Both the position numbers and the translations under genes were made by a program. From the NCBI GenBank assembly GCA_037951105.1, contig JBAMJV010004005.1, positions 1-64,000 on the forward strand: a stretch of DNA of 64,000 bases, read 5' to 3'. This document shows positions 18,201 through 49,852 of the stretch, piece by piece. The first letter of the stretch is position 1. Every line of letters starts with the position of its first letter. Source of the stretch: Echinarachnius parma. Its lineage: Eukaryota; Echinodermata; Echinoidea; Clypeasteroida; Echinarachniidae. The notes beneath the pieces were generated by a model. It saw only the letters and a list, made by a program, of their open reading frames with translations, was not told where the DNA came from and made no database searches.

Positions 18201-21200
18201 CCTTTTTTTCCCAACTTAAGGATTTCTTTGAAAAAAAGAGTGTGGTATATCAATAAAGGCACATATTTAAAGCTATAAACCTGAATCAAAGCCGGGATTG
18301 CACCCCTCCTTTAAGCGCAAGTCATACAGTATGGGCATTTGAGCCAATCAGAATCGGGCACATAGTCACATTTTCTGACTTGCAATTAAGCACAATTTTG
18401 CGATTGATGCAATTCAAGTTGAACTCAAATTCGAAGTCAGACTTTAAAATACAGAAGGACACTTGTAGTCTTGGAATATGAAATATTCAATATGAAAATA
18501 CAAATATGGGATACTTTTACTAAAATTCTAAGAACTTAAAAACTGTCATTGATAAGGAAATGAATACCGATTAAGACACTGATATATCTATATTTGGCCA
18601 ATAACATACCAATAGTAATGCAGGGCACATTTTCTGATTAGATCCTTAACTGAATGTCTGACCTAGGGTTATAGACTAACTGGTTGGTCGGTCAGTCGGT
18701 TGATTGATTGATTTACAGATTGTTCCATTGCTTGATTGATAAGTTCTCATGCATGATAAATTGACATCAAATAAACATACTCACCAGAACAATGGCAGAA
18801 TGAAGAGGGGACTTAGAACATAGAACTGCATGTCGTTGGCTAGGTACCACCCCCAGTTCACACACTAAGGAGAGAAAAAAAGGTAATACAGGCTACAAAT
18901 TGAAGAAAATGTAAATATCCTTCATGCAAAATCTGAAAGCAAAATTGAAAAGGTCTAGGAAGATACGTACATATTATTAAACATTTGTTGTGCAACATAT
19001 GGAAAGGTTTTTTTTCTATTTATATATGACAACATTTTTTAAAAAGAAGACACAAAATACTAATATTTGCTTCAATTATATACACCTTTTGATGGAGTTC
19101 AGATATATCAAGAAAACTTATAACAGCGTAAGATTTATAACAAAATCAAACAAAAGTCAATTTTAAAGGAACAAATAAACAAGGAGTGAGGGGTCCCTCT
19201 GTTTCTATCATTCTAATAAATCAATGCAAGACGCTCAAAAGTCTGATAGGTAAAACACTTATATAAAAGACGATAATCAAAATTGATTGTCTTCTTGTTT
19301 GACATTTTTATACATAGAAACTAACAGCTTTTGCATTTACCTAAAGGGGACCACCAGGCAAAGAACAACATATAATTATATGTTTTGGTACCATTTTGTG
19401 ATATCAAATAGATACCCAACACTTGTCATTCATGAGGGTGTGTCAATAGCATGAGTGCACTATAAAGTAGCACCTGCTGGAATGCTCCCCCGGGAGTAGA
19501 GAAAGTGCACAATATAGTGCGGAAGTGTATTAAATGGCCGAGTTGTACATATTAATATTAGATGCAGGTTCCTCTGGGGGAACAGAGCAAAGAGCACTGA
19601 AGAGGCTAACCTGGATTAGGAACACAACACAACAACAACAACAAAAAAACATTTTGCAAAGGGTTGTGTAATTCATTAACAATGCAATTAAACTACCACC
19701 ACTTACGGAACCAGTATTATTCATGGTTCTGCACTCGCCAAACATTTGCGATTGTGCCACGCGTATGTTTGGAGACAATAGAATCCCGGACGATTCGTTC
19801 GCTCTGGACAAAGGAGTCTTTGTACACGCAGACCCATGAACGCATGCTTTAGAATGGTGATGCGTTTTCCAATCATATTTGTTTTCTTTCTGGAAGCATA
19901 TTTTTCTGAACTTGCTGATGGAATGGACTACTAAATATGTTATCTTTCATTTATAACAATATTATTTTTGGGTAGTGGTACCCTTTAATTAATTTTTATT
20001 TTTTTAAATTTGAAACAGCCTACCAAAATATATTTGAAAACATGGAGTTTCAACGTGAATTAAACAATTAATCAAATTTTAATTCCTACTCACATCTGTG
20101 GTCCCATCAGGGACTAGGTTGTTGATGTAGAGCAGGTCTGTCCACCACCAATCGGAACAGAACTGCTGGTTGAAGCTATGCAGGCCCCAAACTGGTCCCT
20201 GGCCCAGGTTGGGTAGAACAAACATTAGGACCAGAATTAGAAGTGCGAGTGATGGTGTCAACCTGTGGTAGACGCAAATAGTAGAACATTATTATTTGTA
20301 TCAAAGCAACAAGAAACATAAACATAGAAACATAGGTCCAAAAGTAGAAGTAATGGAGGCCCCAACCTGGTCCCTGGCCCAGGATGGGTAGAACAAACAT
20401 TAGGACAAGAATCAGAAGTGCGAGTGATGGTGTCAATTAACCTGTGAAAGACACACAGTTTATTAAAAACATATTACCCTTCATTTCAACAAAAGCCAAA
20501 AAAGGAACAAGAAGTGAGGAGGCCCCTAACTGGTCCCTGGCCCAGGTTGGGTACAACAAACATTAGGACCAGAATCAGAACAGCTAGTGACGGTGTCAAC
20601 CTGTTTGAGATACAAAGTGTTACAATATATTATAATTCCTTTGCACAAAACAAGAAATGTAGGACTAAAATGAGAACAGAATTAATGGAGGCCCCAAACT
20701 GGTTCCAGGCCCAGATTGGGTAGTATTAGATTTGGACCAGAATTAGAAGAGCTACATAATATGGTGTCAACAGGCTAATGACACAGGAATCGTAATTATA
20801 TAGATATGTTCACATTTCTTTGAAAACAAATATACGGGAGAACAAATGCAAGGCCAAACATTGCTACCAACATTGATATTCAACAATCAGGAAGATTTAG
20901 GGAAATTTCATCAGAAATCAGGAAGATATCTATATAAAATGCATACAACGTTATGACAATAATTTGTTGATGATCAGGAAGATTGGCTATCCGATGCAGT
21001 AATCTTGGTCTATTTTATCAAGAAGACTTGGCAGCTCTGAATAGGTAGAACCAATTTGAGGACGACAATTAGAAGACCTAGTGCTTGTGTCAGGCCACCT
21101 GTCTACAGTGGCCACTTTTGCTGTTTCCCATAGGTAATTACTATACACAGGTTTGATTGTAATTTAGACACAGTCTAGAAGACAAACTGATGAAATTAGG

Positions 21201-24200
21201 TGTTATGTAAATCAAAATGATCATTACCTTCAGAAGGGCGTTAAATAGATTTTTTGTTAGATATAATTTTGCATACCATCTTGTAGGTCGGAGCATGCTC
21301 TACATGTATGCTAAACATTTCATGTATGCTAAACATCATGTATGCTTCTCAGGTAATGATTATTTATATGTTTTTGTTATAGCTATATACGTGGTTTCTA
21401 CAAGACTCCAAAACTTTAAACATAATAATCTCTGAAGTACAAAAAGTGACTAGTAAGCACTCCGTTTTATCAATCGATATTTACCTGAGATATCTGTGAA
21501 CGTAAAACCACACCCAGGGAATTTTTCCTCCAGTTTCTTTCATCTTATTGAGGATCAGGTAGCAAACAAGAAGGCCACTGTTAGAGAGAAGAGAAAAAGA
21601 ATATATAAAGAAACATTAAGCTAAAGGGATATAAAAATACAATTATCAGCAAGACAAGCAAGAAAAAGGGAGGGAGGTGGAAAGAGAAAAGAAAGGTATG
21701 AAACAAGAAGGCTGCTGTAAGAAAGAAGAGAAAAGGGAATTAAATGGAGACAGGTAATAAAGACAAAAGGATGAATACAAAGTAAGAAAATATAAATTAT
21801 AATAGTATGCATTATAAGCAAGAGGTAGGGAGAGTGGGGGAAAGAGAGAGAAAAGGATAATTTACGGATAGAAAGTGATAAAGAGACAAGAGAGAGGAAT
21901 GGAGAAGGGGGAGTGAAGAGAAACAGAAAGAATAAAAACCACACCAGGTTATCTTTCCTCCAGTTTCTTTCATCTTATTGAGGATCAGGTAGCAAACAAG
22001 AAGCCCACTGTTAGAGAGAAGTGAAAAGAAATTAATATCAAATGCATTCTCATTCTCAATCCATCCTTTTTAAAAAAATCCAAAAAGTCTTGAAAATAAT
22101 GTAAATTTGTATCTGCCTTACCAAGAAAAACAATTAATAAATACATTTTTTTGACAGGAATTTGTAAATTTGTCAAATTTGTCAAAATCACTTGACCGGT
22201 TTTTTTTCTTCAGGAAACCCTCCTTTAGTATTGAAATATTCATGACATGAGCTCACAGTATTCATTCATATGACATTTGTTTTACATTGACCCGATAGAG
22301 TACCGAAGCTCTGACATCATAACAATCTATTTTTTGGAATATCTCACTTTGAACTTAATTTTCCGAAAAAGAAAAACAAAATAATGCCCAAAGGTTGAAA
22401 ATCAATCAAATATGTGACCTATTGGCTGAGATATAACCATCCAAATAAATAGATTTTAATAGGAAATCACTGTTACATGTATTTTGCTCTGGTTCGTAAC
22501 GTTATGAATCAGAGCAGAATAACAATGATTTCCTATTGAAATAAATTACTTCGAATGGGCATATCTCAGCCAATACTTAACATATACTGTTGATTTTCAA
22601 CATTTGGACATTATTTTTATGCTCTTTCGGAAAATGAAGTTCAAATTTGGAAATCTAAAAATAGGTTTTTTTATGACGTCACACTTCACCACTCCATGAG
22701 TGCCAGGGTGGACTCAAGCAGGGACAAAATTTGTTACGTTTTCTGTTTCCTGTATAAGTCTGGCAACATAACAAGCACTTAACCAGGTCGAAATTCCCAT
22801 AGAACCAACACACATAGGAGACCCATAGAAACCCATAGGCCTATTGGTTTCAATTGGGAAAGTGTACTATGGGTGTCTATGGGTTTCTTAGGGATTCCTA
22901 TATGGGTTTCCCATGGGTTTTGATTCTATGGGAATTTCGACCTGGGAAATGTCTATGGGTCCCATAGAAACCCATACAGACCCATAGGAAACCCATAGGA
23001 AACCCATAGGATTGTCCTATGGGTTTTTATGTGAATTTCGACTTGGGTTATCTAGTTAGGTTCTCACCTGAGGAAGAAGAAAGTGTCCACAGCCAGGTAG
23101 GCATTGCTGATTACCATAATGGAAAAGTTGTCAAGAAAACGATCTAAAGCAAGTATAATGTTTTCTGCAATGAGGACAAATTAGAGGAAATGCATTTTAA
23201 TGATTCATTTATGTATTTTGTCTATTCAAACAGTTTTAGCCCCATCGTATTTTGTGGGCCTTGCGTAAAAACAATACAAGCATGCAATAAACATCCATTA
23301 TTTTATCAAGAAAAGACAAGTTATATATTTCATAGTCAACAATTGAGCAAGTTAATAAGTGCAGTTGCAATAATGGAAATTATGATATAAAACGGCTCTG
23401 GTAAATTCAGTAACGTGATTGGTTAAATCCAGTCACATGACTATTCATTAAATTTCAACAAACAAGAAAAAGCGTAACACACATGTGTTGTCACTTTTTG
23501 TTGCGCGATATTTGCACGGCTGTGACGTCACAATGCTTGTTGACATAGTTCTACGAAGTCAAACTTGCGAAAGTGATAAAAAAAAAAGATGGAAAATGCT
23601 TCGTTCTGTAAATAATTGTGTTCTGTAGTAAATAAATCTTAGCAGATTCGTAAATTATATGGTATGTGGTTTGATATTAGGAAGTTTTGGAATGGAAATG
23701 CATACAATTCTTTGATAATTCTCACTTTTAACGGGAAAATTTTCGGATTTTCGGCGACTGCATTTGATCTGCTGAGCTGCAGCTAGTCAAATTCAGTGAA
23801 GCGAGTGCACTCTAGTGATGATTAATTTGGTAAATTCCTAATAAATTCACACTCTACAGAGTAGATAGACTTGGTTACCAATTGTGGAGAGCCTGTTTTC
23901 AATAATCTAGCAAAATAAAACAATCCGTGGTTGAGCCTGTTTTATAAAACAAATAATACTACGGCCTTGTTATCGTGCCGTCATGTAAATGCATCGAAAC
24001 TAGACGCAGTGCACTCAGGGAGACAGTGCATACCTCCACCAACACTCAATTTTGATAAAATCCTTGCCCTTTGATTCCCAAGTTGAATTTCCCATAGAAA
24101 CCCATAGGAAACCCATAGAAAACCCATAGGAATATCCTATGGGTTTCTATGGGTTTCTATGGTACCAACAGAAATCCATAAAATAAAAACCCATAGAAAC

Positions 24201-27200: not shown

Positions 27201-30200
27201 CAAGGATTCTTGAAATATCTTGAGAATAATATTGTTTGCATATTAATTAGCTGTGACCTTTGACCTTTGACCTCATGGCCCCAAAATGTATCAGATAATC
27301 CATACCTCTGAATACATGTCTTGTACAAAGTTTGAACAGAATCCATCCAACAATTCTTGAGATATTGCCAAAAAAAAGTAGGTTGCGTCACCCTGTTACC
27401 CAAAAAGTAACAGCGTGACCAAATTGATATTGCTTAGATTAATTAGTGGTAAAAGATAATGCTGCTATTTAGCATCCATAATATAGCCCTATGGGTGAAT
27501 GAAGAAGAAACAACAAATAATTTCATTCCCATTCATATTTTTCCAGAAATATTAAAAATACCTGTTTTTAGGGTAACAGCGTGACATATAGATGACTATA
27601 AATGAAACAGTCACTGAAGCAGAACAAAGAGCGAAAATGCCGAAATAGATATTTATCTGATAAATTGAAGTAATGTTCTTACCAACACTGAAAGAAAATT
27701 TTATGAAAACCTATTTTTGCAGCTCTTTTAAGCTTAATATATACAAGTATATTTTGTGAAAATAATTGAAAATTAATTTATGCTAATTAATTCCTATGAA
27801 ATAATAGTTTACGCCAAAATTTGTTTTGAACAAAATGCATTTCTGAATAGTTTAATCTTTAAGCTTTATCATCATCATCATCATCATCATCATCTGTACG
27901 GAAGGATAGGTTGTGTCCTGTAGTTCTTCCGGTCGTTGCATATAGGTTGGGTTGGTGCGGCTGAATTTGTACTATACTATAATATAATAACTGCATTTGG
28001 GTGTTGCGTGTGAGGCGGACTTCAGTGCAAATTGAATCTTTCTTCCCACCAAAATTGGTCCAATTTTCTTTTAAAAACGTCAACTGATGGTGCAGCAATA
28101 ACATCTTCGGGGAGGTTATTCCAATCATTTATTATCCTTAGACTAAAAAAGTTTAGTCTGATGTTTAGCCGGCATCTTGGGTGAAATAGCTTCAGTGTGT
28201 GGCCCCTCGTAGACGGGTAGTCGTTGCGAGTAAAGAAATGATCTGACGCTACATTATCAAGGCTGCGTAGAATTCTGAATACCTGGATCATGTCGCCTCG
28301 CCTTCGTCTGTAGAAGAGCGAATGAAGGTCCAGTGCTCGAAGTCTTTCCTCGTAAGTGAGATGTCTAATTTCATGTACCGATTTGGTCGCTCTTCTCTGA
28401 ACTCTTTCTATTTTATCGATGTCTCCGATGAACTGTGGGTGCCACGCTGACTGTCCATATTCGAGAAGAGGGCGGACTAATGATGTGATTAGAACCGTAA
28501 TTGTGAACTTGTCAATGTGTGAAAATGTTCGTTTGATTAGACCAAGGGTACGATAGCCTTTGTTCACTTGAACTGCGATGTGCTTCTGAAAGGTGAGGTT
28601 GCTATCGATGATGATTCCAAGGTCTGTTTCCTCCGAGGTTTGGTGCAGAGGCGACTCTCCCATTAAGTAGTCTTGGTTAATGTTCCTTCTTCCAAGATGA
28701 AGCACTTTACATTTTGTGTCGTTGAAAGATAGCTGCCATGTTCTTGACCACTCGAGTGCTTTGTTAAGGTCAGCTTGTAATAATGATGTTTCGTCCTCAG
28801 TGTCTGCTGTGCCGTATATCTTGGAGTCGTCAGCATATAGGAGCACGTGACTGTCGATTATTTTGGGTAAGTCATTAATGAAGAGAAGGAACATGACTGG
28901 ACCCAGCACACTCCCCTGCGGTATTCCACTCTGCACTTCTGTCCAGGTTGATTTGCTATCATTGATTGCAACACGCTGCTGTCTGTGCGTTAGAAAGTTT
29001 TTCAACCAGGTGAGGAGCGAGCCGTCTATTCCATATGCCTTGACCTTCTGCATCAGCCGGCGATGGGGAACAGCATCGAACGCTTTACGGAAGTCTAAGT
29101 ATATTACATCCAGTGATTTTCCCTCATCTAGGAGACGTGTCCAGTCCTCGAGCTGCCAGAGTAGCTGGGTGTTACATGATTTCCCTGGACAAAAACCGTG
29201 TTGTTCATCCGATAGTAGATTGTTTCTAATCATGTGTGGAATGATAATGTCACGGATTAAAGATTCAAGGATCTTCACCACTATTGAAGTTAAACTTATA
29301 GGTCTGTAGTTAAAAGGATCCCTTTTAGTGCCTTCCTTATGTATCGGGGTTATGTCAGCAAGTTTCCAGTCTTCCGGTACAAAGCCTTCATCTAATGATT
29401 TCTTGAAGATCACAGCTAGCGGAAAGGCAAGAGCTTCTTGGGCCTCCTTCAGGACTCTGGGATGGATCCCATCTGGTCCTGGTGATTTGCTCGGATTAAG
29501 TTCGTTAAGCTTCTTCCGGACATTCTCTGTTGTTATCTCTATGTTGTTCAGAGGTGCTCCTTTCCATACTTGTTCGAAAGGTGGCATGTTTGTTGTGTCC
29601 TCGACAGTAAACACGCTTTTAAATGCTGAATTCAGTACCTCTGCTTTCTCTCCATCCTCTGAAGCAAAGCTGCCATCATCCTTGATAAGGTCACCAACTT
29701 TTACTCTCTTTTTAGTTTTGCTGTTTACATATTGCCAAAACCTTTTGGGGTTTTCTTTAATATCGTCCATCACCTTTGACTCAAAGTCTCTGCTTAATTT
29801 CCTGGTGCTGGAACGGAGATCATTCCTAATACGTTTGTACCTGGTAAGGTCCCCAACAGATCCTGTATGTGTGTAGGTCCTCCAGGCACGTTGTTTCCTT
29901 CTGGATAGAGCTAAGGTTTGTCGATTAATATAAATGTTCTTCTTCTTGGACTTGTTTGGACATTTTGGGATAGACTCTTCAACTGCATCCAATATTGCTT
30001 GTTTAGTAAAAGCCCATGCTGTATTGCAGTTTACGTGTTCAGTGTGGTTGTTCCAATCGACATTGCCTAGGATTTCTCTAAGGTGATCGTAGTCCCCTCT
30101 ATTGAAGTTGTATAATTTGATACCAAATATGTTATGATTCGACGAATTTGAAAAATGGGTGCTTATGTCAATGTTTGCTTGAAATTGCCCTTTAGCAATA

Positions 30201-33200
30201 GATCTTTAGTGTTTTTCAAAGTCTAAATGGTAAATATAAACTTAATGTGTCTTTAACAACAACTAATTGTATTGCTGGTGTACGTTACGTGTGTATTGCA
30301 TGCGATATTATGCACATGTTTCGATTAGCTGCCTTTGACGTCTTTGTGCCTTAATTTGTAGGACTACATCATACAAGATTTAAGGGTGAGAAGAATGCTT
30401 GCTTTTTATAACAAATAACGGTACCAGGCATAAATGCAGTGCATACACATTTCTACAATATATTAATCCTTTTTTCCCCCTGGTTTTTCCATAAGGATCG
30501 AGCCGACGGTCCCCGGGGGGGTACTCACGTATATTGGGTATACGGGGATGTGCCGCTGGGAAGGGTGACTTTTTCAAGAAAGATCCTTAGACATGGGTCC
30601 CCTTTTCAAGAAAGATCCTTAGACATGGGTCCCCTTTTCATCAAAAAAATCCTTAGACATGGGTCCCTTTTTTCAGATTTCCCCTTTTTTATACGGGATT
30701 TTTGGATTTGCCGATGTAAAATTGCAAAAATTTCAAGCTCGCTACGCTCGCTAATTTAAAACCGCAAAATTTGCGGGAAATACACCCAAAACATGCGCCG
30801 CAGGCGAAAAAAAAATCCTAGGCATGGGTCCATTTTTCGCAAAAAGACCCTTAGATGTGGGTATGGGTTTGGAGGTCTCAGCCGCACACCCCCGTCCATC
30901 TATAATCCGAGTACCCCCCCCGGGCCGACGGTACGACGCACCAAACAGCGCTGCACCCAACGCCGCCCCCGCCGTGACTGCTGGACCGACGTACGACCAG
31001 CGCCTGGGCAATAGCTGCGTGCCTGAAGCTGCCCTGGCTGAAACCAAGGGCCCTTAAAACTCACAGGTACAAATCAATAGAAATAAAAGCCCGGAGCAGA
31101 CACACAACTAAGACCACAGCACAGTAATGCTCTGCATTGCATTAACAATGAATATACACAAGTGTTCAATTGAAGAAAAAAAAGTGGCACCCAGTATGGA
31201 CAGGTCTCTTAACTTCGCGCGTATCCCAACTTCGCGCATCATAGGCGAGATACGCATAAATTAGAACACGGACACGGCGACGGAAATTTTCAATGTCAAA
31301 TGAAAGAGCACACATCAATTACTCATCAACCAAAAAAATAGCAAATAAAGAGCGATATTTTTGTGGTCATTTTTTGTAAATTTCTTTGGTGTTTCAATAA
31401 AATTATGGAGGAGGAAGAATCAAGCAAATTAAACGGAAATCGTTCCAGTAGAACAATTTTGATGTCATCGAAAGGCTGCGCAAAATGCTCCTGTATTCAA
31501 CCTACCCTTCAAATTTACTTTCGGATCGCGCAATCTCCGTAGATAGCTTGACAACGCTGCGCGTGCTAAGATGCTAATGCGCGCAAAATGTTTGCATCAT
31601 CACACTGCCATTGAAATGCGTGTTACAGTTTGCCACACGGGATACGTGTTAAGTCAATGGCAGGGTGCCCTATGTATTGACGCGCGAAGTATGCCGACTA
31701 CCGTATGGTAGGTGTACTACACATCGGCACTGTTTTTAATATCGGCACACCGCGTAATATTTGTTTTTGCGCGTGTTGTGAAAAATCGCGCATGTGATGA
31801 TGCGCGCTACCCTTAAAAACTAAACTGGTCGAAATTTTGAGGAGAAATAATGCGTAGATCGTCCGCTACGAGTAAATTTGTGAAATGATGCCAATAAAAT
31901 TAGCATCGCACAAGAAATTTGGAGTTGCGTGCATTGTCAACGAGAGTTGAGGGGGTGCCGGTATTAAAAACACTTCGAACTTGTGAAGCCAAAAAAACAT
32001 GCGCGCGTTCGAAGGCGCTATCTCAAAATATAATTAATACATCGCAAATCTGATCATCGCATCGGAATCTGCACTATTTTCTCAATGTGTGAGTACAATT
32101 TCAAGAAATGTGTACAATTTTTAAGTCTTAAACTGTCGGAAATGTGTTAGTGTGCCGATGCGGGGGTTACTCAATCATACTCTGTGAAAAAGTTCTTGCT
32201 GATATGACATGCCACGGAATCGGGTCATTATAACCACGAATTGTGAGTTTAAAATGAAATCGTTCAAGATTAATCGAATCCTCAGAATTTGAGGGGTAAT
32301 TTATGATTGTTTCATTGAGATTACTGTAATTTTCTTGATCCTAAGCCACTTTGAAAAAATCCGAAATTCTCGTGCGCGAAGTTGGGATACACCTTCATAC
32401 TGGCAGTAGTAATTTGCTATAAATTCAAAGTATAATACTAGCCGACTCGACCCGATCCGACTGGTTTTCAGACTGATTAACTGAGTACGTTGCCGCAAGC
32501 TCAGTCAGCTGCCAGTCAGAGGTCATTCGATGCTGAACATGTTGAATCAGCTCTGACTGAGCGAAATAAACTGGCTCTAGTCAACTCTAGCCTGAATGAA
32601 ATCCAGTCAGATCTGGGCGAGTTGGCTCTGTCTGCACCAGGCTAAGTTAACATTATCCTAACCCTAACTCTAGTGAACGCTAGCGCGGAGCGCTAGCGTT
32701 CTAGGTCGGGCTAATAGTGCCCCCGAATTTATCATTTTTATGTACACGATAATGTGGTTCTGATTTTACCACACAATTAATTTGGCCGATAATGTCTACT
32801 TTCAGTAACTTTCCCAATACTGTTATTCTGGAACAGAGTCCAGTAAGTTTTGAGGATGTTGACAATGTGTATTAATTTTTGAAAGAATTTCGCCCTTATC
32901 TTATATTTCAATTGTTTTGTCATAATAAAAGAAAACCCACATTGGGTTGAAATCCAGTTAACTCTTGTTGTCCACATTGAGTTGTTATTAACAATATGTT
33001 AGACGTAATTTTTACCAGTTTTTGCTATATCCCAAGTCGAATTTCCTATAGAAACCCATAGGAAACCCATAGAAAACCCATAGGAATATCCTATGGGTTT
33101 CTATGGGTTTATATGGGACCAACAGAAATCCATAAAATAAAAACCCATAGAAACCCATAGGACCCATAGAAACCCATATGATCCCATATAAACCATTAGG

Positions 33201-36200
33201 CCTATGGGTCTCTATGGGAATCCTGGGAATTTCGACCTGGGTTATTGACCTTGAAAATTGAATGGGTTCTATTCTAGATAAACACAAAGCTTCTATGAAA
33301 AATTGGTTGAGATATCTGAGTAATTGTGTGCAGGAGACTGGTGACGAACGAACAAACAAACAAACAGGACCGAAAACATAGCCTCCTCCAATTTCGTTGG
33401 CGGAGGTAATGAAGCATTATAAAGAGATGATACTATTGCATCTTCTTAGGCATAGCTATTTCATTTTCTAGATGAAAACAGTAATGGTTATAATTGGCTA
33501 TTCCTATTTGATCATAATAATGCTGTATTTTTTCCTTTTCATTTTGGATATTTCAATGAAGTTTTAAATCACTGTTACAAAGGAGTTAATGACTACTTAC
33601 CTGAAGTCATGGAAAATATGGTCATTGCTAGGGCCTAACCGATGCGGGATTTCACTGCCGATCCGATGTCCGATGTTTTTCCCCCCCGTATCGGCCGATC
33701 CGATCCGATGCACCAATGTTTTTCCCCAAAAATGTTGCCTTATGTTTCCTATTGTTTTTTTCTACTACGCGGCTGCGATCTGCTAAGGCCTCCTCTGCAT
33801 GCGAGGCTCCGGGCTGGCCCGGCTGAGAGCAGAGGGAATATGTGCATAACGATCATGACCTGCGCAAGCACTTACAAAAATGCAATGTTTTACGCTTAAA
33901 TTCATCTTTTTATATGGCAATAAAATAACAAACGTTGATGCTTCGGTTGATTTATGAAACAATATTTACGGAAACTATGATTACAAAATATACAGAATTA
34001 CCTCTGTTACGAGCAGAACATTACTTTTTCCCGAGGTAGATGAACGAAAACTTGATTCGATTGCGTGTAGTTTTTGACAAGTTGATGCGTGGCCAGTGAA
34101 AAAAATACAATTATGCTAGGACTGAGAGCAGCGAAAATTATGCAAAATCGCCAAAAATTATGCCAAACCCTCTTTTGGAGCCGAGAGTCATTTTTTAGAC
34201 CGAAACCAGGAAATGTTAAGGTCTAGACCAGGACCCATTCATTGGTTTGGAATCATGTAAGCGGGGGGGGGGGGGGGGGGGGGTATAGTAGAAGACATTT
34301 TTCGAAGCCTAGACTGAGAATTTTCGACGTTTTTGAGACCGAGACCAGGTCCAGTCCCAAATTTTCGAGGCGAGACCAGGATTTTTACACAAATTCCGAG
34401 GCCGAGACCAGGATCTTCGAACCAGAATTATGCTAAAAAGAGTCAAATTATGCCAGAATTCGTAAAATTATGCCAGGCATAATGCCAGATGCCAAAAGGG
34501 TCAAAATTATGCCAGAACTGGCCACATAGTGATGATCTAGAATAACTAGCAACTGGCGCAAGTAAAAAAGTCCGTATTTTCAACGTTGCCAATATGTGAA
34601 GTACGTGATTACGTGTATGCATTTAATACATGTGGTCCATGCGGTCTGCAAATTGGCAATGAACGGAGTTCGCCAAATAATTTATGTTCCAAGTTCAAGC
34701 GAGATATTGGTAGAATCTTCTGAGATAGTCCGCGCATTCGTTTGCATTTTTTGGGGGGCTATTTTTGTTGCCATATATTCTTGGATACAGGGGCGTAAAT
34801 CCCGGGGGGGTGGGGGGGATGCATCCCCCCCCCCCCCCCGCTCTTGAAGGAGGGGGGGGGGGGTGCCTGTACAAATCATCCCCCCCCCCCCGAGAATTAA
34901 AAAAAATGAATAAAAAAAAAAAAAAGAAGGAAGAAGAAGAAGAAAAAAGAAAGCATATAATGCATGAGAAATTAGTGTTTTTTAAATGTAATTATAACTG
35001 TTTATATTCCACATACTAAGAATCTTGCTCTACGATTGGTCAAAAGTTAATCACGTGATGAAACATAGTTTCGCCCATCATTGATGGGAGAAGAAAACTT
35101 CGTTACACTGTGTAGATATCTTGGGCGAAAGTGCGTTGCACTCACTAGATAATTGGTAAAGTACTATCTACACTCCGCGGTTGCATTGAATTTAACGTGG
35201 AGTGTGTGGCCACTCAAATTCAGTACTTGCGCGATAACTCTATGCGCGCGAATTGTATTCGTTGTGCATGCATACGGTATACGGAGATACTAGTACACTG
35301 CACTGCACAGTGCACTGTATGTGTATTGTACATGCATTACATACATGCACCGTTTGCTGTTAATTGCTTGTTCTGTTGCTCTACTATGGCGGCCACAGAC
35401 GTAAGATTTGAGCTCTTTAACGAAGCTGAAATGGACACTTTTTTGCTTGAGAGTGAAAGTAAAAATACCAAGCGACAACTTAAGTTCAGCCTGAAAGTGT
35501 TCCAAGATTATTGCGATGCTGGAAGCATACTTTTTAACGAATTGTCTGATAGTCTATCAGGTTATGTAAAGCAGCAATTTTTTTTGCTATAATCTTGGAA
35601 ACAGTTTTTAATTTGGTCTAAATACATTACTGATGAGAAAAAGTGATGTTTCCATTTTTTATTTTTGGTCCCAGGGTGCATTTTGGCGATTTTAAAGATA
35701 ATTAGCTAATTTGCATATTTGTGAAATAAGGTCAGGGGTCATTTTCTATCTAGGAATAGTACAATATTGATAAAAACTAGTATTCTAGGGTATTTTGAGG
35801 CAAGGATTCCATTTCCGGTGCTCGTTTGTAAGTGCTGTATGGGAAACACTCTGAAATCAAAGATGGCTTCCCCTAATTTGCATATTTATGAATATTATTG
35901 ATTTTCAGTGGCTACAGCCCCTAATAAGCAATAATTCCGGATTATTATTTGTCAGTTATGTTCTAAGTATGTATTTAAGATATCAAAGATGAGTTAACAT
36001 CATGGCAACCTCTAGCAATGCATATTATTTGCATAAATATGTATTTTACCTAATTTGCATATTCCCCTAAATCGAGCATATTGGGAACCCGGCAAGTAAA
36101 AAAGACAAGTAATACCACTTTTCCAAGGTTTTAGGGGGCAACGAATCCATTCATGATACTTATTTACCTGTATCACCTCGGCAACCCACATAAATTCAAG

Positions 36201-39200
36201 ATGGCCGCGATTGTCATTTTAAAGTAAATAATGCTATTTGCTACTTAAACGGCATTTAATTGATAAAAGTATGATTTGCTTACTGTAAGCAAACAACTAC
36301 ATTGTGATTCAAATATTCTAGTTGCTCATTCCAATAATTAAAAGTCAAAACATTATAATATCAATCTAATATAACCGAAATAATATAGTCGTGTATGATA
36401 ACATGTGTAATTTAGGGAGCAGTCATCTTGGATTTGAGATGGATGCCATGGTGATACAGGTAAATAAGTATCAAAAATGGATCTGCTGCCCCCCAAAACC
36501 TTGGAAAAGTGGTATTACTTGTCTTTTTTACTTGCCGGGTTCCCAATATACTCGATTTTGGGGAATATGCAAATTTGGTAAAATACATAATTATGCAAAT
36601 AATATGCATTGCTAGAGGTTGCCACGATGGCAACTCATCTCTGATATCTTAAATGCATACTTAGAACATAACTGACAAATAATAATCCGGAATGATTGCT
36701 TATTAGGGGCTGTAGCCACTGAAAATCAATAATATTCATAAATATGCAAATTAGGGGCAGCCATCTTGGATTTCAGAGTGTTTCCCATACACCACTTACA
36801 AACGAGCACCGGAAATGGAATCCTTGCCCCAAAATACCCTAGAATACTAGTTTTTATCAATATTGTACTATTCCTAGATAGAAAATGACCCCTGACCTTA
36901 TTTCACAAATATGCAAATTAGCTAATTATCTTTAAAATCGCCAAAATGCACCCTGGGACCAAAAATAAAAAATGGAAACATCACTTTTTCTCATCAGTAA
37001 TGTATTAAGACCAAATAAAAAAATGTTTCCAAGATTATAGCAACAAATTTCACAACATTTATTTACACTTCATTAGGGGATATACTCTGACGTGGACTTG
37101 AAAGCGCTAGACCAAGTGTTGGGGAGACTCTATTTTCGCGTTTGTTGACTTTTGAACTGTTTTTTTGGAGTTTACATTTCGCGTGTTAGCTTTTGGAATT
37201 ACCCTGTTACCGAAATTGGAATAACAAGTCATTGTTGGTAAGTAGATCAAACCTAGTAGTAACTAACAGTACTTAGACTTAGAAGTTAGACTTAAGCCCG
37301 GCGCAGACAGAGCCGACTCGACCCGATCCGACTGGCTTTAATCAGGCTAGAGTTTGGCCTGGTCGGTCGGAGCAGATTTATCGTGTTGAATCGGCCCCAA
37401 CTGGCATCCGACTGTCTCTCGACTGGCAAAATGTGTGTCGCGAGGCACTGAAAACTGAGCCGATCGGAATGACAACCAGTCGAGTCGGCTCTGTCTTCGC
37501 CGGGCATTCTGAGTACTTAGAGTAGACTAGTCTAGGGGTAGGCCTGCTTAGACTACAGTACTAGTACAGTAGTAGTACTACGAGACTAGATCTAAGTTCG
37601 ATGTGAACCAGTCGAGTCGGCTCTGTCTGCGCCGGGCATTAGAGTACTTAGAATAGACTAGGGGTAGGCCTGCTTACACTACTACTTGTACATTATTACT
37701 TAGTACTACTAGACTAGATCTAAGTTCGATGTGGAATATAAAGCAAATAATCACCTTTTGGTTTCAGGCGATGGCAAACTATCACTTCCTCGGCGATCTG
37801 AATGTATACGCTATCTTTCCTCAGCTTCGCTTCGGAAAGATAGCTACATCCAGCTCGCCTCGGAAGTGATAGATTGTCCCATCGCCTTCACCAACGGTAA
37901 TTATTTGCTTAATAGCCTACACGTATACAGTATGTCACGATCATTAAAGAGTAGTTGCGCGAAGTGCCCGAACAAGCGCTTCATAAACTTCAGAATAATT
38001 TTTTGTTAGTATAGCCCAGACGTAAAATGCGCCAGAAGAATAGATGAAGACTGAAGGTCAAGACCAGGCGAGTTCCAGACTAACAGTGGCCGTTTGTCTC
38101 TTATCTAGTCCCCTTTTCATAAAAAAAATCCTTAGACATGGGTCCCATTTTGTAAAAAAAAAATGAGACATGGGTCCCTTTTTTCATTTATTCCTTTCCC
38201 CTCTTTTCTCCCTCGTTTTCTCCGGGATTTTGGGATTTTCCGCTGTGAAATTGCTAAAAATTTCAAACTCGCTCCGCTCGCTTGCATACGTAATATTTAA
38301 CAACCTCGGATGTTTATATATTACCCTTCATAATGCCATATCATAAGTAATAAGACGAATATACCCATACAATTATATTGAAACAAATGGCAATTTTCCG
38401 CTGTGAAATTGTTGAAATTTTCAAGCTCGCTCCGCTCGCTCGCTTGCATACGTAATATTTAACAACCTCGGATGTTTATAATTATATTACCCTTCATAAC
38501 GCCATATCATATGCAATAAAATGAATATACTCATACAATTATATTGAAACAAATGGCAATTTTCTGCTGTGAAATTGCAAAAAATTGTAAACATACGTTA
38601 TATTTAACAACCTCGGATGTTTATATATTACCCTTCATAACGCCATATCATAAGTAATAAGACGAATATACCATACAATAATGTTGAAACAAATGGCAAT
38701 TTTCCGCTGTTAAATTGCTAAAATTTTCAAGCTCGCTCCGCTCGCTCTCTTGCATACGTAATATTTAACAACCTCGGATGTTTATAATTATATTACCCTT
38801 CATAACGCCATATCATATGCAATAAAATGAATATACCCATACAATTAAATTGAAACAAATGGTAATTTTCCGCTGTGAAATTGCTAAAAATTTCAAGCTC
38901 GCTCCACTCGCTTGCATACGTAATATTTAACGACCTCGGATGATATTACCCTTCATTATAAACGCCATATCATAAGCAATAAAACGAACCATTATTGAAC
39001 CAAATGGCAATTTTCCGCTGTGAAATCGCTAAAATGTTCAAGCTCGCTCGCATATATTTCACAACCTCGGGTGTTACCCTTCATAACGCCATATCATAAG
39101 TAATAAAAACGAATATACCCATACAATTATAATGAAACAAATGGCAATTTTCCGCTGTGAAATTGCTGAAATAATATTTTCAAGCTCGCTCCGCTCGCTC

Positions 39201-42200
39201 GCATATATAATATTTCACAACCTCGGGTGTTTATATTACCTTTCATATAACGCCATACAATTATAATGAAACAAATGGCAATTTTCCGCTGTGAAATTGC
39301 TGAAATAATATTTTCAAGCTCGCTCCGCTCGTTCGCATATATAATATTTCACAACCTCGGGTGTTTGTATATTACCTTTAATAACGCCATACAATTATAT
39401 TTAAACAAATGGCAATTTTCCGCTGTTAAATTGCTAAAATTTTCAAGCTCGCTCCGCTCGCTCACATATATTTCACAACCTCGGGTGTTTATACATTATA
39501 TTACCCTTCATAATATATCATACCTAATAAAGAAATTATCAAGAAACTGCAAATGATTGCCCATTGTTTAACAGCTAAAATGTAATATTTAAAGAGTGAC
39601 TAAATTAAAAAAATTTAAAGACTTTGGTTGATCTATAATAATGAATACATCACATATCTGTTGACTATTTGATGTACATTTTTGTCATATTTTTTATATT
39701 ATTTTTTCTATTATTTTTATTCTACCTGCTAAGATCCACCCCTAAAAAAACCAGAAGCTATTGACTTCTGTGACATCACAATACCATTCAACCATCGATC
39801 AGCTAGATAAACATAAACAAAAGATATGTTCTCACCCACTAAGTACCTTATTGCATTAGCGTTGGATGTTTTCATTGAAACCCTTCTTTTCATGGTGAGT
39901 GGGCATTGTATAAAACATACAATGCTATTGTAAATAGGTGATCAGTGGACATACCAATAACTTTTGTTCATCTAGCTGACTGATGGTTGAATGGTATTAT
40001 GATGTCACAGAAGTCAATAGCTTCTGGCCGGTTTTTTTTAGGGGTGAAGCTGAGCAGGTAGAAAAAAGTAATAGAAAAAATAATATAAAAAATATGACAA
40101 AAATGTACATCAAATAGTCAACAGATATGTGATGTATTAATTATTATAGATCAACCAAAGTCTTTAATTTTTTTAATTTAGTCACCCTTTAAAGTTCGAA
40201 ATCCTTAGACATGGGTCCAATTTTGCGCAAAAAATCCTTAGACATGGGTCCATTTTTTTACAAAAAATCCTTAGACATGGGTATCTATTTACAGCAAAAG
40301 GACCCGTGGATGTGGGTATGGGTTCGGAGGTCTCAGCCACACACCCCCGTCCGACTATAATCTGAGTACCCCCCCCCCCCCCCCCGGGCGCGATCGCGCG
40401 CGTGTGCGTAAATTATTTTGGGCTTGTGCTTGTGCTAGTATGTGATGGCTATCGCCGAGCATCCCCCCACTCCTCTGTACGGATTTACGCCCCTGCTTGG
40501 ATATGTTTAAAAAACCATGTGAACATGTAAGTAAATTAACCGATCGTCTGGCGTAGGTTCAATGAATCTTTAATTTTTATTCTTTTTCGGCTTGTGCAAG
40601 GCAGCAGCGGCACTAGCATTTTCTAGTGCAATGCATAACCCAGCTCTGCGTGGCACCCAAAGCTCTGGGGGGCCGATCTGTGCGTGTTCCGTATACCGGT
40701 TACGTTCCACGGATGGGCAAATTGTTGAATTCTGTTCAATTTTTGTCCGTAAATTTGTCAAACAAATCAATGATTTTGCGGAAATAACCACTCATACGGT
40801 AAAATACATACATGGACAATTTTCTAAATTCTGTTTTTTCATTTCCGATTTTGCAAATTTCACTTCTTTTAAGTGAATCGGTAGCGCATCGGCCGATTTA
40901 TCAAAATATTGCCGATCCGATGTTTTGCCGATGTGGCCAAATATCGGCCCGATCCGATGATCGGTTAGGCCCTAGTCATTGCAAGCGTGTGACCAAGAAT
41001 GACCCATGAAATGCTGATGACTCGAATGCCATTGAGGCATGGAATCCCTCCCTTAGTCTGCTTGGTGCCCAGGATCTTAGGAAGGTTGCGTGAGATGGCA
41101 AAACAGAGCAGAAACAGCGCAAAAGCACCTGCACAGAAAATGTTAGTCACCGTTAAGGAATTAATTACTACCTACCATTCGCCATGGGATATAGGGTCAC
41201 CAAGGGCGTGTGACCTAGGATGACCCAGGATATGCTGATGACCCGGATCCCGTTGAGGCAAGGGACCCCTCCCTTAGCTTGCTTCGTGCCCAGGATCTTG
41301 GGAAGGTTGCAGGAAATGGCAAAACAGAGCAGAAAGCGGACCCATGCACCTAAGCAGAAAAATAAGATTCAGATGAATAGTACAAATGTATGTCGTGCAT
41401 TATGAACAATCTCTGTGATGCCCTATGCAGGGTCGTGAATAAAAGTGAATAAAAGTGCTGATAAATTGGATCCCATTGAGACACGGTAATGACGGTATCC
41501 CACCCTTAGCCTGGACAGTCTCGGTCTGTAGGAGCTTGGGAAGGTTGCAGGATGGCAAAACAAAGCAGAAATCCCCCCAAAGCAACTGCAAAGAAAATTA
41601 ATTCAGATAAATATTAAATGTCATGTATAATAAACAACATTCTCAATAAGAATATAAGCCAAATCCAGATGACTCCCAAGCTGTTGAGGTATGAGATCTT
41701 CGTTCCCAAGAACTAAAGAAGGTTGCAAAAGATGGCAAAACAGAGCAGAAAGCAAACAAAGCATCTGTACAAAGAGGGAATTAATTGCAGTAGTAATTCT
41801 ACGTATTGTTATTGTGAGAACATACCCAATGCTTTTGACCGAGACATCGTTATAAAGGTGTCGCCGAGATTCATGCATCTTCTATCGATTGCTGATGACT
41901 CAAATGGCTTCTCCTAGCTGCTTTGCAAACTTATTAAATAAATGTCATTTCAATAAATTAAATTTCAAATGCAATTCAAGCAACAATCAACAGAAGTGTG
42001 TTAAGCATCATAAATAGAGATACTAGATAATAAAGAACTTCACACAGAATGTTTAATAGCAAAAATCGATTGAAACAATATTCATAAGCTTAGAAAAGAA
42101 CAACATTGATCAATTGACATTCCAATTTGAATTTCAGATTTTTTCAAAATAGTTTTGATATGCAATTTCATTAAACAAATGTTGCAACCTAACACATGTA

Positions 42201-45200: not shown

Positions 45201-48200
45201 TAATGAGGGAATAATGTAGTAGTAGCAATATAACATTTAAAGAATGTTGTGTATTTAGGCATCCTGAGAGGCACATTATTATCTTTTGTCATCAGGTGCC
45301 GCACAATTATGCAGGAATGTTTGATGGCTATTTGACTAGCTATTTGTCATAGGCTTAAACTGCACTAAGTAATGGCGGCGTCAGACTAGAGCCACGCTCT
45401 AGCCACGATCTAGACAATAGCTGATCACAATCACTGGAATGTATCTGCAAAATGTCTTTTGTCCAATGAGGATCTGAATGGGAAGATTATCTCACATGTG
45501 TCAATAGATATCCTTCCATGAATGCACAGACAATAGCTCGCTGAACAAAAGACTAGGTCGGCAAAAGACCCACGACCGACCCACGACCGCTTTTTAAGGT
45601 TTGGACATGTCGAAAGCGCTCGAAAGCGGTCGTGAGTCTTTGGCGTTCTACTCTTTTGTTTAGGGAGCCATGCATGAGAGGCTATCCTTTTCACCTATGT
45701 GCGATAATCCTCCCATTCATTCGTCATTTAATCATCGTTCGGACAATGCTTCGCCTCCCACTGCCAAATTTATGAATGGGGATTATGAGCGTAGCAATTT
45801 TATGAATGGGGATTAGGAGCGGCGCGAGAGCGTAGCTATATGTGACGGGGGTATAAAGAAAATCACATCATTCTATTGTCCAACAGTCGAATGGGCAAAA
45901 ATGTTTGAAAACATTATGCACTGCACAAAAAAGAAGGTCATAAATGCAAGCCCATCACCTACCACAGTGCTAAAGGAGAATAGATCACAAATTCTATTGA
46001 GCTAAGGTGCAATGTGCAAAATGCTTTGAAGTTATTAACACCTTGAGTGCCAAGCTCGCATTTTTGCGAGTTACATACACGATACACACAAATGCCATAT
46101 AGCATTAAAAGCCCTGGCACTCAAAGTGTTAAAGAGTGTCTAAATCATTCTATAGACAACTAGTCATAAATGTGAGTTGCACCCAAATCAACTTTAACCG
46201 GTAAACGGATGTCTATCTAGGAGAAATATGGTCCTATTCATTGTTCATGAATTATATAAGATATATTATAGCCTCCACACACTAACTTTGTTTTCTACTT
46301 GCCCATTCAGGCGAGTAAAGTCATAAATTTCCACATGGCCAAGCAGAAGGGTTACTTCCCCCCCCCCCCCCCCCCCAAAAAAAACAAAAAAACAACATTT
46401 TATGTGAAACAAAAGAAAAATTGATTATGCTCAATCTGTATGCAAATTTGTTGCTTGTTAGTTAAACAGATATGCTATTTGCCCGATCTGGCAAGTAAAC
46501 TAGACTATTCATGAAATTTTACTTGCCCGACATCAATTCTTACTTGCCCCGGGCAAGTGCTGTTGTTGAGCCTTGAAAGTGAATAGTACATCTATTCACA
46601 GTTTATGCATACTTGATTCTTATGGGACAATAATCTCGCAGCTTTTGAATTTTGTCTTGCAAAAGGCGGACTAGGATCTTTAAAGTCTCACCAAGTAGTA
46701 ATTCCAGGGCGTTTCTCACATCCGTCCCATTGCAAGTCTCTGGGACACACACTCCCCACTGTATGGGTAGAACCTGGATAATAATGAAACAACAACAGTA
46801 TATGATTTACATCAAAGTCAATGGCTAATATTGTCATCGCCCTGTTAAAAACAAAGAAAAGGGAACGAAAGAGAAGAAAAATACTTGAATTTAAGAGAAA
46901 TTCTTACATCGATCCTCCTCATCTCCTAATACTTTGTATTTCCCATATTGTGCATGTCACATAAACAAATTTCCATATTTCAACCAAAAAAATTAACTAG
47001 AATTTGAACTTCATGTGTATGAGTAGAGCATCTAGAAGCTACCCTGCACGTTGGTGCCCAGTACTGCGGTCAAATTGGCAGCTATTCCAACCAGGAAGTG
47101 ACGATACTCTTCGACAGCCATGCACAGGTCAAAATTTGCAAATTTTAATTTATATCATATATATATTTCTGGTCATGCAATCTCCCTATATGAAATAAGG
47201 TGTAAATTTCATAACAATGCCTCATGAAAGATTTTCTTACCGCGTTGGCGCCCAGTACTGCGGTCAAGTTGACAGCTAGTCTCACCAGGCAGTGACGATA
47301 CTCCTCCACAGCCATGCACTGGTCAAAATGGCCTAACCACGCCAGGTTTCCAGCGAGGATTCCAGATGCAGGCTTGCCGAACGAATCCCGGACTGAGGAA
47401 TGAGAATAACAAGATATGTATACAATATCAATAAGTCATTATTGTCATTGATCATGGAAACAGCGATCTCATTTAATGGTCAGGCACTGGTCAAAATGAC
47501 CAAGCCACGCCAGGTTTCCAGCGACGATCCCTAATGCAGGCTTGGCGAATGAATCCAGAACTTGAGGGAAGACAATCAAAAAGAGATACAATATCAACTG
47601 CGGTTTTTCTGCAGTACTCGCAGTACTTTTTTACAAGGGAAGACTGCTCACGTTGCTTATCATTGTAAAACTTGTACTCGTGCATGCATTCAGAAGTATA
47701 TATGCTCGAAATTTGAACAGTCCCACTGGCCCGGGGCCCCCCCCCCCCCCCCCCCCAAAAAAAAAAATTAGCTTTGGGCCACCAAATTTTATAAATGATT
47801 ATTCCCACTGCCCTGATATGAATGGGCACTTGGGCAGTAAATAAAACAGAATTGTTAATGCTTTTCTTTGTTTGGGGCCACCAGATTCAGTTTCGGGCCA
47901 ATAGAATGTGAACAATCTTGTTTTACTTGCCTGACAGGGCAAAAAGGCAACAAAGTTCATTTTTAGCATAGCTGAGTAATCCTACACTTACTTTGAATAG
48001 TTTCTTCAGATGCGGACATCAGTCCAAACAGATCAGCCAAGCATGCTGCCGAAATCAGTCCCATGTCTGGCGGCTCGGCCGACAGCTGCATATCGTGTCT
48101 GTTCATTTTAACGAACTCGGCATAACCCGCTAACTGGTCAGCAACCCCTCTCCTCGTGTCTCCCGATGCAGGCTGCAAGATGGTGACCAAGACCAGGTAC

Positions 48201-48250: not shown

Positions 48251-48568
48251 TATGAGTGATCGTGCCTCCTATACTAGTTCTACAAATGTAGGAAATTGTA
48301 AATGGAATGTACAATGTTTTTCGCACTACATTTATGTAATGGTGTGATGTGGAAAAGGTAATTCCAACTGATCATTTTCATTTCCTGTCAGCTGCGCTAC
48401 ACTAGGTCACGTAAGCGGCTATTTGTTGGTTTAATCAGCAAAATCTCATCTCCTGGCACCTATATGCAGCCATCACACTAATGTGTCAATACAGTGAACA
48501 GTGACATGCATTCATCTACACACATTGAAAAGGGGTGAACTTTATCCATACATTATCCATCAAGCAAG

Positions 48569-49852
48569 ATGATCCAACACCTAGAACTCAATCACCTATT
48601 CACCGATAACCAGTACGGCTTTCGCAGTGGCAGATCCTGTTCAACCCAATTGACTGTCGTCCTTGAGCAGTGGACCAAGATTCTTGATGATGGCCATGGA
48701 ATAGATTGCCTATACTTGGACTTCCGTAAAGCATTTGACAGTGTGCCACACCAGCGTCTACTTACCAAGATTAGAGCAAACGGCATTGGAGGATGTCTTA
48801 TCAAGTGGATTGAGAAGTACTTGACAGGCCGCAGTCAACGAGTGGTGGTGAATGGGAAGACTTCAGAAACCAGCGAAGTAACAAGTGGCATACCGCAAGG
48901 AAGTGTCCTAGGCCCTGTCTTGTTCAATGTCTACATTAACGACCTACCATCTGTAGCTCAGAACTCTACTGCGAAGTTATTTGCCGACGACACAAAACTG
49001 TACAGGGTTGTAGACAATGAAGAGGATGCTAAACTACTCCAACAAGATCTGGATGCAATCGTTCAGTGGTCAAGTAACTGGCAGCTTCCGTTCAACGAAG
49101 GAAAGTGCAAAGTGATTCACTACGGAAAGAACAACAAGAAGTTCGCCTACACCATGGAAAGCCCTGACGGGAGAAAAGATGTGGCAACGGATGAAGGAAT
49201 GGGAGAAAAGGATCTGGGGGTATTATTTGACTCAGATCTGTCCTTCTGCGCCCATGTAGCTGATGTATCCAAAAGAGCCAATATCAAGTTGGGAATCATC
49301 AAACGTTCGTTTTCATCCCTTGGTTCCAGTGGCATGCTACAACTGTACAAGACCATAGTACGCCCAACACTGGAGTATTGCAATGCAGTCTGGAGACCAA
49401 CTTATCTAAAGGATCAAGACTTACTGGAAAAGGTCCAACAACGAGCTACACGACTCATCTCAGATGTGAAACATCTAAGCTACGAAGACAGGCTCAAGTC
49501 ACTCAAACTACCATCACTAGAATACCGTAGACAGAGGGCTGATCTTCTTCAAATATACAAAATCATGCATGGATTTGAGTCTGTAGAGAAGAATGACATG
49601 TTTGAAATCATCAAAGAATCCAGAACAAGAGGACACAGGCTCAAAATTAGGAAACCTCACTGTAAATCCAGGATGAGGCAGATGTCATTTTCAGTGCGGA
49701 GAATAAATAATTGGAATAATCTTCCTACAACTGCCATTAATGCCTCATCTATTAATAAGTTCAAATCAGAACTTGAAAATCATTGGAAGCACCACCCGCA
49801 GAAATACTGCCCATACCAACGCGAATCCAATGCAGTAAAGAGGGGCACATAA
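48569..49852 (+). CDS. 5'-truncated CR1-like LINE RT ORF
   Basis: 427 residues starting inside RT: YGFRSGRSCSTQL, LDFRKAFDSVPH, SGIPQGSVLGP, catalytic FADD at 138-141, then the C-terminal region RPTLEYCNAVWRP. The initial Met is just an internal residue near the truncation. The frame is intact to the TAA and is followed by AACCAAAGTAA-type short repeats. It lies 320 bp upstream of the NRF-6-like start, on the opposite strand. Confidence 0.88.
   Translation: MIQHLELNHLFTDNQYGFRSGRSCSTQLTVVLEQWTKILDDGHGIDCLYLDFRKAFDSVPHQRLLTKIRANGIGGCLIKWIEKYLTGRSQRVVVNGKTSETSEVTSGIPQGSVLGPVLFNVYINDLPSVAQNSTAKLFADDTKLYRVVDNEEDAKLLQQDLDAIVQWSSNWQLPFNEGKCKVIHYGKNNKKFAYTMESPDGRKDVATDEGMGEKDLGVLFDSDLSFCAHVADVSKRANIKLGIIKRSFSSLGSSGMLQLYKTIVRPTLEYCNAVWRPTYLKDQDLLEKVQQRATRLISDVKHLSYEDRLKSLKLPSLEYRRQRADLLQIYKIMHGFESVEKNDMFEIIKESRTRGHRLKIRKPHCKSRMRQMSFSVRRINNWNNLPTTAINASSINKFKSELENHWKHHPQKYCPYQRESNAVKRGT

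Follow-up and report, generated by a model that had tools for sequence, protein, structure and literature searches.

What happens to a gene when a transposon enters one of two adjacent homologous coding exons, and was the broken exon an idle spare or a working alternative? This question is raised by an NRF-6-like acyltransferase gene of Echinarachnius parma, which lies on the minus strand of positions 1 to 64,000 of contig JBAMJV010004005.1 (GenBank assembly GCA_037951105.1). This 64,000-nucleotide stretch is called the window, and it forms the start of the contig designated C4003 below. Exon 7B of the gene is split by a 7,346-bp transposon next to its intact sister exon, 7A. A second copy of the locus, on contig C8653, has no transposon and carries a single exon 7 of mosaic 7A/7B sequence. 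Taken together, the data make it likely that an ancient 7A/7B pair lost 7B to the transposon on C4003 and was fused into one exon on C8653. The gene and the features around exon 7 are as follows:

6659–48250, minus strand: NRF-6-like membrane O-acyltransferase gene, 16 coding exons, 764 amino acids (aa) with 7A, Pfam domains NRF and Acyl_transf_3
33601–33620, minus strand: 3' part of exon 7B, 20 nt, followed in gene sense by the donor CAG/GTAAGT
33621–33628, no strand assigned: target site duplication (TSD), copy 1 (GTCATTGC), from the sequence
33629–40974, no strand assigned: transposon with hAT-type ends, 15-bp perfect terminal inverted repeats (TIRs), interior with other repeats
40975–40982, no strand assigned: TSD, copy 2 (GTCATTGC), from the sequence
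40975–41128, minus strand: 5' part of exon 7B, 154 nt including the TSD, with the acceptor side and the R-X10-H motif
41129–41175, minus strand: spacer between 7A and 7B, 47 nt
41176–41349, minus strand: exon 7A, intact, 174 nt, phase 1-1, donor ATG/GTAGGT
41430–41585, minus strand: copy 7C of exon 7, decayed; its first base is 41585, its lower boundary approximate
41640–41764, minus strand: copy 7D of exon 7, decayed; its first base is 41764, its lower boundary approximate

An earlier note, made from the window alone, had described a transposon that splits a coding exon at 33601–41128. This was confirmed. The inserted element carries the perfect TIRs TAGGGCCTAACCGAT and ATCGGTTAGGCCCTA (15/15 bp complementary) and is flanked by the TSD GTCATTGC, whose two copies are identical in 8/8 bp. 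The chance of such a 23-bp coincidence of TIR and TSD is about 4^-23 per placement; summed over the placements possible in 64 kb, about 3e-5 such coincidences are expected. Joining the flanks without the element restored an open exon of 154 + 20 = 174 nt, equal in length and phase to 7A, as the earlier note had stated. Its placement of the break after codon 363 was right as to the codon; by the gene model, the break lies within this codon, after the second base. When 7B is read into the element, a Thr is completed and two residues follow before a stop. The R-X10-H motif is present in the split exon, as claimed, but it lies wholly within the 5' 154 nt; the motif itself is unsplit and is only severed from the donor site. 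Exon 7A was found intact and phase-matched 47 nt upstream of 7B (about 50 bp in the earlier note). With 7A, the 16-exon model with GT/AG splice sites reads through as 764 aa.

We then asked what 7B had been doing before the insertion. The two exons are adjacent, homologous and of equal phase (174 nt each, phase 1-1), and 44 of their 58 amino acids are identical. They differ at 39 of 174 nucleotides, 23 of these being third codon positions. The residue differences are spread unevenly, with 3 of 5 in the head, 3 of 43 in the core (codons 6–48) and 8 of 10 in the tail. In the core, synonymous divergence (dS) was 0.71 (15/32.7 sites) and nonsynonymous divergence (dN) 0.032 (3/96.3 sites), which gives a dN/dS of 0.045. 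A copy that was neutral throughout would give about 26 nonsynonymous core changes versus the 3 observed. In the tail, dN was 0.69 and thus near the dS of 0.86. A simulation was tuned to the observed silent divergence, with 52 attempts per branch and 2,000 runs per setting; in this model, which is based on one short exon, the non-neutral copy takes silent changes only. When one copy was neutral for the whole or for half of the branch, 3 or fewer nonsynonymous core changes were obtained in 0 of 2,000 runs each. Neutral fractions of 0.3 and 0.2 yielded this result in 22 and 236 of 2,000 runs, respectively. At the matched setting, neutral time is therefore bounded at about 30% of the branch, and faster settings with more silent changes tighten this bound. 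Both exons were constrained as coding sequence, as is seen in a mutually exclusive pair. Within the simulation model, 7A and 7B are an old pair, both members of which were under purifying selection for most of the time since they arose, and the loss of 7B was late.

Splice sites and relatives were also compared. In a matrix built from the 15 donors of the gene model itself, the 7B donor (CAG/GTAAGT) scored 12.0, above all 15 model donors (5.7–11.5), and the 7A donor scored 7.8, among the three weakest. Against the eight nearest relatives, the 7B tail matched better at 5 of 8 differing positions and the 7A tail at 1, with 2 equal. At head positions 3–5, the same relatives agree with 7A and never with 7B. 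Neither 7A nor 7B alone was accepted as the ancestral type, as the relatives side with 7A at three head positions and with 7B at 2 of 3 core and 5 of 8 tail positions.

A genome search with 7A as query matched at least four contigs of the assembly, which form two colinear pairs. Besides the window, an exon 7 with 92% identity to 7A over 156 bases was found on C8653, another contig of the same assembly, upon which the reading of the locus as single-copy was dropped. C8653 and the window are colinear across the whole locus, both flanks included (window 302–50432 versus C8653 782–28411). The same locus takes up about 50 kb in the window versus about 28 kb on C8653, and the transposon makes up 7.3 kb of the difference. 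The C8653 gene has 16 open exons and encodes 776 aa; versus the window model, dS was 0.118, dN 0.05 and dN/dS about 0.4. At the insertion site the alignment leaves the window at position 40975 and resumes at 33626; the two parts overlap by 6 bp, which lie within the TSD, and exon 7 is uninterrupted. This copy of the locus without the element joins the exon in frame, in agreement with the reading of the insertion in the earlier note.

The single intact exon 7 of C8653 is a mosaic. Its core differs from 7A at 7 of 129 positions versus 18 of 129 from 7B, and its tail differs from 7A at 14 of 30 versus 4 of 30 from 7B. The 38 informative sites split 21:3 for 7A left of nt 144 and 12:2 for 7B to the right of it (Fisher p 1.2e-5; single-breakpoint permutation p 5e-5). 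Core dS was 0.17 to 7A and 0.68 to 7B. The tail reads PLVTLYPMAN in window 7A and LVMTIFSNTS, which is of 7B type, on C8653. Most simply, the C8653 exon would be a hybrid with a 7A core and a 7B tail, generated by recombination between 7A and 7B. As the core dS of the pair (0.71) exceeds that of the locus (0.118), the pair appears to predate the split of the two locus copies. A decayed exon-7 copy is also present on C8653; judged by eye, its start is 7D-like and its body 7C-like.

These results change what can be said of redundancy. The earlier note had called the intact exon a spare copy. This fits insofar as 7A keeps the gene readable, but both exons were under coding selection, and 7A need not replace the 7B isoform because their last ten residues differ at 8 positions. 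Likewise, buffering by redundancy is a fair description for keeping the gene open and is unproven for function. More happened at this locus than one buffered hit: C8653, which lacks the element, has a single exon 7 that resembles a fusion of 7A and 7B.

The way in which the pair was spliced can be judged from its spacing. The 47-nt spacer leaves about 33 nt from the 7A donor to a plausible branch point, TGACTAAC, which was picked by eye. For the mutually exclusive exons 4a and 4b of OGDH, the part of the source used here gives about 50 nt between 5' splice site and branch point as the steric limit, and shows that a short donor–branch-point distance enforces exclusive use (PMC7969005). By analogy, 7A and 7B were most likely spliced as alternatives, one at a time. 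As far as that part of the source goes, the OGDH exons resemble the present pair in being two similar adjacent exons of equal phase with divergent segments, and in having the 5' splice site near the branch point (25–41 nt in OGDH, about 33 nt here; PMC7969005). The present case differs in that one locus copy has a transposon-cut exon and the other a fusion of the two sisters, and in that it is known from DNA alone. Alpha-tropomyosin is another system of mutually exclusive tandem exons with a short intervening intron.

Based on these observations, we propose the following history. Exons 7A and 7B would have been born by tandem duplication, and both would have worked. They code for a near-identical core, with the start of the acyltransferase domain and R-X10-H, but diverge where the catalytic helix ends and in the loop that follows. 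Later, two copies of the locus, probably two haplotypes, may each have lost the two-exon state. On C4003, a transposon with hAT-type ends, probably non-autonomous, entered 7B. The strong donor of this exon was thereby cut off from the acceptor and from R-X10-H, after which full protein would be made only by splicing 6-7A-8. On C8653, recombination of 7A with 7B would have removed about one 221-bp unit and left the single hybrid exon.

Other explanations were weighed against this history. A misjoin of a transposon contig into the exon, for which the draft state of the contigs could be cited, is highly improbable in view of the exact TSD and perfect TIRs at both junctions, and because the jump in the C8653 alignment, with its overlap inside the TSD, is what a clean empty site should give. 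It could also be argued that 7B was an idle spare, whose loss was neutral while 7A always did the work. The intact state of 7A would fit, as would the decay of two other exon-7 copies, and of extra copies of other exons, while the gene stayed open; the agreement of the eight nearest relatives with 7A at head positions 3–5 points the same way. An exon without work should, however, not have kept its core to 3 nonsynonymous changes at such a silent divergence, nor does it explain why 7B has the strongest donor and the tail closer to the relatives. We set this explanation aside as unlikely on the core selection test and the simulations. An even less probable explanation takes the C8653 exon as ancestral and unfused, with a duplication specific to the window and unequal rates thereafter in the 7A tail and in the 7B head and core. 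The C8653 exon does agree with the nearest relatives both at the head, like 7A, and at the tail, like 7B, and its donor resembles that of 7A. Opposite rate changes would then be needed in adjacent segments to give the split of the informative sites, and the core distances of 7A and 7B to C8653 should be alike, yet they are 7 and 18.

The relation of the two locus copies is less clear-cut. C8653 could be a recent segmental duplicate instead of a haplotype, so that two gene copies would share out the two tails, and we regard this as possible, though well short of likely. Substitution divergence between C8653 and the window averages 5.9% (16.2-kb chain, blocks of at least 250 bp). It reaches 9–12% round exons 6–8 and is similarly raised at exon 2 (12.5%) and exon 14 (10.7%), with a value of 19.9% in a block near exon 13, so that the peaks round exons 2 and 7 (12%) and near exon 13, the dN/dS between the copies and the far greater length of the window copy would all suit a duplicate. 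Against this stand the colinearity from flank to flank and the low divergence of 2.6% in a 3.5-kb block of the 3' flank, although a short block beyond it differs by 8.7%. Round exons 9–10 the divergence is 3.4%. The contigs matched by the 7A query also form two colinear pairs. The other pair, C14084 and C6795, carries another NRF-6-like locus and shares 14 blocks of more than 300 bp, 10 of which lie on the diagonal at 1.8–4.6%, with one further block on the diagonal at 8.4% and three off it at 19–23%. As this second locus is likewise found on two colinear contigs, both haplotypes seem to be represented in parts of the assembly, and C8653 and C4003 are most likely one such haplotype pair.

Several observations weigh against the history of a constrained pair lost on two haplotypes. 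The mean divergence of C8653, and that round exons 6–8, is high for alleles. The C8653 donor and the first bases of its intron 7 resemble those of 7A more than those of 7B, which is unexpected under a simple fusion, and a mosaic could also be obtained by gene conversion into the tail of 7A. In the slowest simulation (40 attempts, with silent changes below those observed), neutral fractions of 0.3 and 0.2 were allowed in 95 and 546 of 2,000 runs, respectively. Over the whole exon, 7B scored higher than 7A in 4 of the eight nearest relatives and 7A in 2, with 2 equal. Introns as short as 47 nt are spliced in some animals. If the 47-nt intron were spliceable in this animal, an in-frame double inclusion would result. 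Finally, no further copies of the element ends were seen in 233.7 kb scanned (four contigs, window included).

As to the meaning of this locus, the window copy would make only the 7A tail and C8653 only the 7B-type tail, beside the catalytic His. It is conceivable, albeit rather doubtful, that each haplotype of a single animal has retained only one of the forms of an ancient alternative exon, and has done so by a different route, so that the two alleles of a heterozygote do what splicing did before. If this were true, the raised divergence round exons 6–8 could mean that old forms were kept by balancing selection. Exon 2, exon 14 and the surroundings of exon 13 show raised divergence as well, however, so that it is not special to exon 7. 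Studies of tandem exons usually concern pairs of which both members are in use, whereas this locus gives a direct record of how such a pair ended. The pair was old enough for selection to be measured on both exons, and was then lost on two locus copies by two different mutations. This makes the locus a place to test whether alternative exons are interchangeable or divide the work, and whether the role of alternative splicing can pass to alleles or to gene duplicates. A comparable case was not found among the best matches in the open-licence literature of PubMed Central.

The element itself was examined for its affiliation. TAGGG-type ends are common in hAT, and clustered motifs are expected as hAT-like subterminal binding sites. 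Here, the outer 150 bp of the two ends contain 8 and 11 copies of CCGAT, versus 6 in the 7,046-bp interior. The hAT consensus for the TSD is nTnnnnAn (Ac) or nnnTAnnn (Buster); GTCATTGC has T at position 2, G at position 7 and AT at the centre. The 8-bp TSD, the short TIRs and the clustered subterminal motifs thus fit the hAT-like assignment of the earlier note, and the element would be a non-autonomous, hAT-like one by its ends, not a proven hAT. A hAT transposase was not found in the 25 of 55 element open reading frames (ORFs; at least 50 aa) scanned with Pfam. Weak matches below the gathering score, namely PUF (E 4.9e-4), COX3 (0.0076), LRR_5 (0.042), Tachystatin_A (0.015 and 0.051), ComC (0.19) and Glu_dehyd_C (0.25), were rejected as chance or repeat effects. 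The inverted end was absent elsewhere in the window with up to 3 mismatches allowed, and Rfam gave 0 matches across the window at the gathering threshold. The interior contains tandem arrays, pieces that occur elsewhere, and the following:

35580–37047 and 39588–40193: two long inverted repeats inside the element, from sequence comparison

One inverted repeat of the interior has 624-nt arms that are 94.9% alike, and a second one spans about 600 bp at 84%. Non-autonomous hAT elements such as Ds share short TIRs, subterminal motif clusters, a variable interior and an 8-bp TSD with this element. It differs in that its interior consists of nested repeats and that no transposase or named family was found in the ORFs scanned. 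An ORF of 147 aa lies in the element at 35149–35589 (plus strand); its residues 80–140 match a single predicted protein, which is unnamed and 103 aa long, at 72%. The region 30579–30921 has pieces in common with 38108–40376 inside the transposon.

By its Pfam domains and the R-X10-H motif, the gene is an NRF-6-like acyltransferase on sequence evidence. The 7A isoform scored 50.8 bits for NRF and 71.3 bits for Acyl_transf_3, both above the gathering score, and the isoform with joined 7B scored similarly (72.2 versus 71.3 bits). Of the top three matches, two bear the name 'nose resistant to fluoxetine protein 6-like' (Lytechinus pictus, 57%; Diadema antillarum, 54%), and one is an unnamed protein (56%). 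Among 60 aligned relatives, which we picked from at least 120 relatives among the matches listed, the R and the H of R-X10-H were invariant in 60/60, and the motif is also found in the exon-7 peptides of the window. This bears out the expectation of the earlier note that loss of the exon would be severe. The proline of 7A two residues past the catalytic His recurs in 3/60 of these relatives, which makes 7A a believable working exon. A structure predicted for the Diadema relative (mean predicted local distance difference test score 83), rather than for the window protein itself, places R and H within one helix, 337–360, and the counterpart of the ten final residues of exon 7 at the helix end and in the following loop. 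Echinoid NRF-6 and O-acyltransferase-like genes share the NRF and Acyl_transf_3 domains and R-X10-H with the window gene; it differs in its tandem exon copies and insertion, the relatives being compared as proteins only. The predicted NRF-6-like protein of L. pictus contains the exon 7–8 region twice in tandem, which is either a tandem exon duplication or a gene model that fuses alternatives.

Exon copies were not confined to 7A and 7B. The decayed copies 7C and 7D, upstream of this pair, had been missed in the earlier note, as had the extra copies that adjoin four other intact exons (arrays at 47049–47597, 21485–22027, 20094–20771 and 12309–12926):

47241–47392, minus strand: exon 2, intact, with partial copies at 47481–47597 and 47049–47135
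21485–21577, minus strand: exon 9, intact, with a decayed copy at about 21935–22027
20094–20262, minus strand: exon 10, intact, with decayed copies between about 20344 and about 20771
12309–12465, minus strand: exon 13, intact, with decayed copies between about 12584 and about 12926

C8653 too has decayed or partial copies at exons 2, 9, 10 and 13. Local tandem duplication therefore appears to be a habit of this gene, given such copies at exons 7, 2, 9, 10 and 13. Tandem copies of coding exons are likewise reported from Drosophila Gr39a, which is said to have undergone exon gain and loss. Tandem exon duplication in animals, as far as it is described in the part of the source used here (PMC9013439), shares with this locus the tandem coding-exon copies, here with intact and decayed ones adjoining. 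The present gene differs from what that part describes in that five exons of one gene are involved and one pair was lost in two ways within one assembly (PMC9013439).

Further reading frames were noted near the gene. Reverse transcriptase ORFs (Pfam RVT_1) lie at 28022–30205 (minus strand) and 48539–49852 (plus strand), the second within a stretch of about 1.3 kb that is not in C8653. Beyond the window, an ORF with a homeobox helix-3 sequence is found at C4003 131946–132926, and presumably resembles UNCX.

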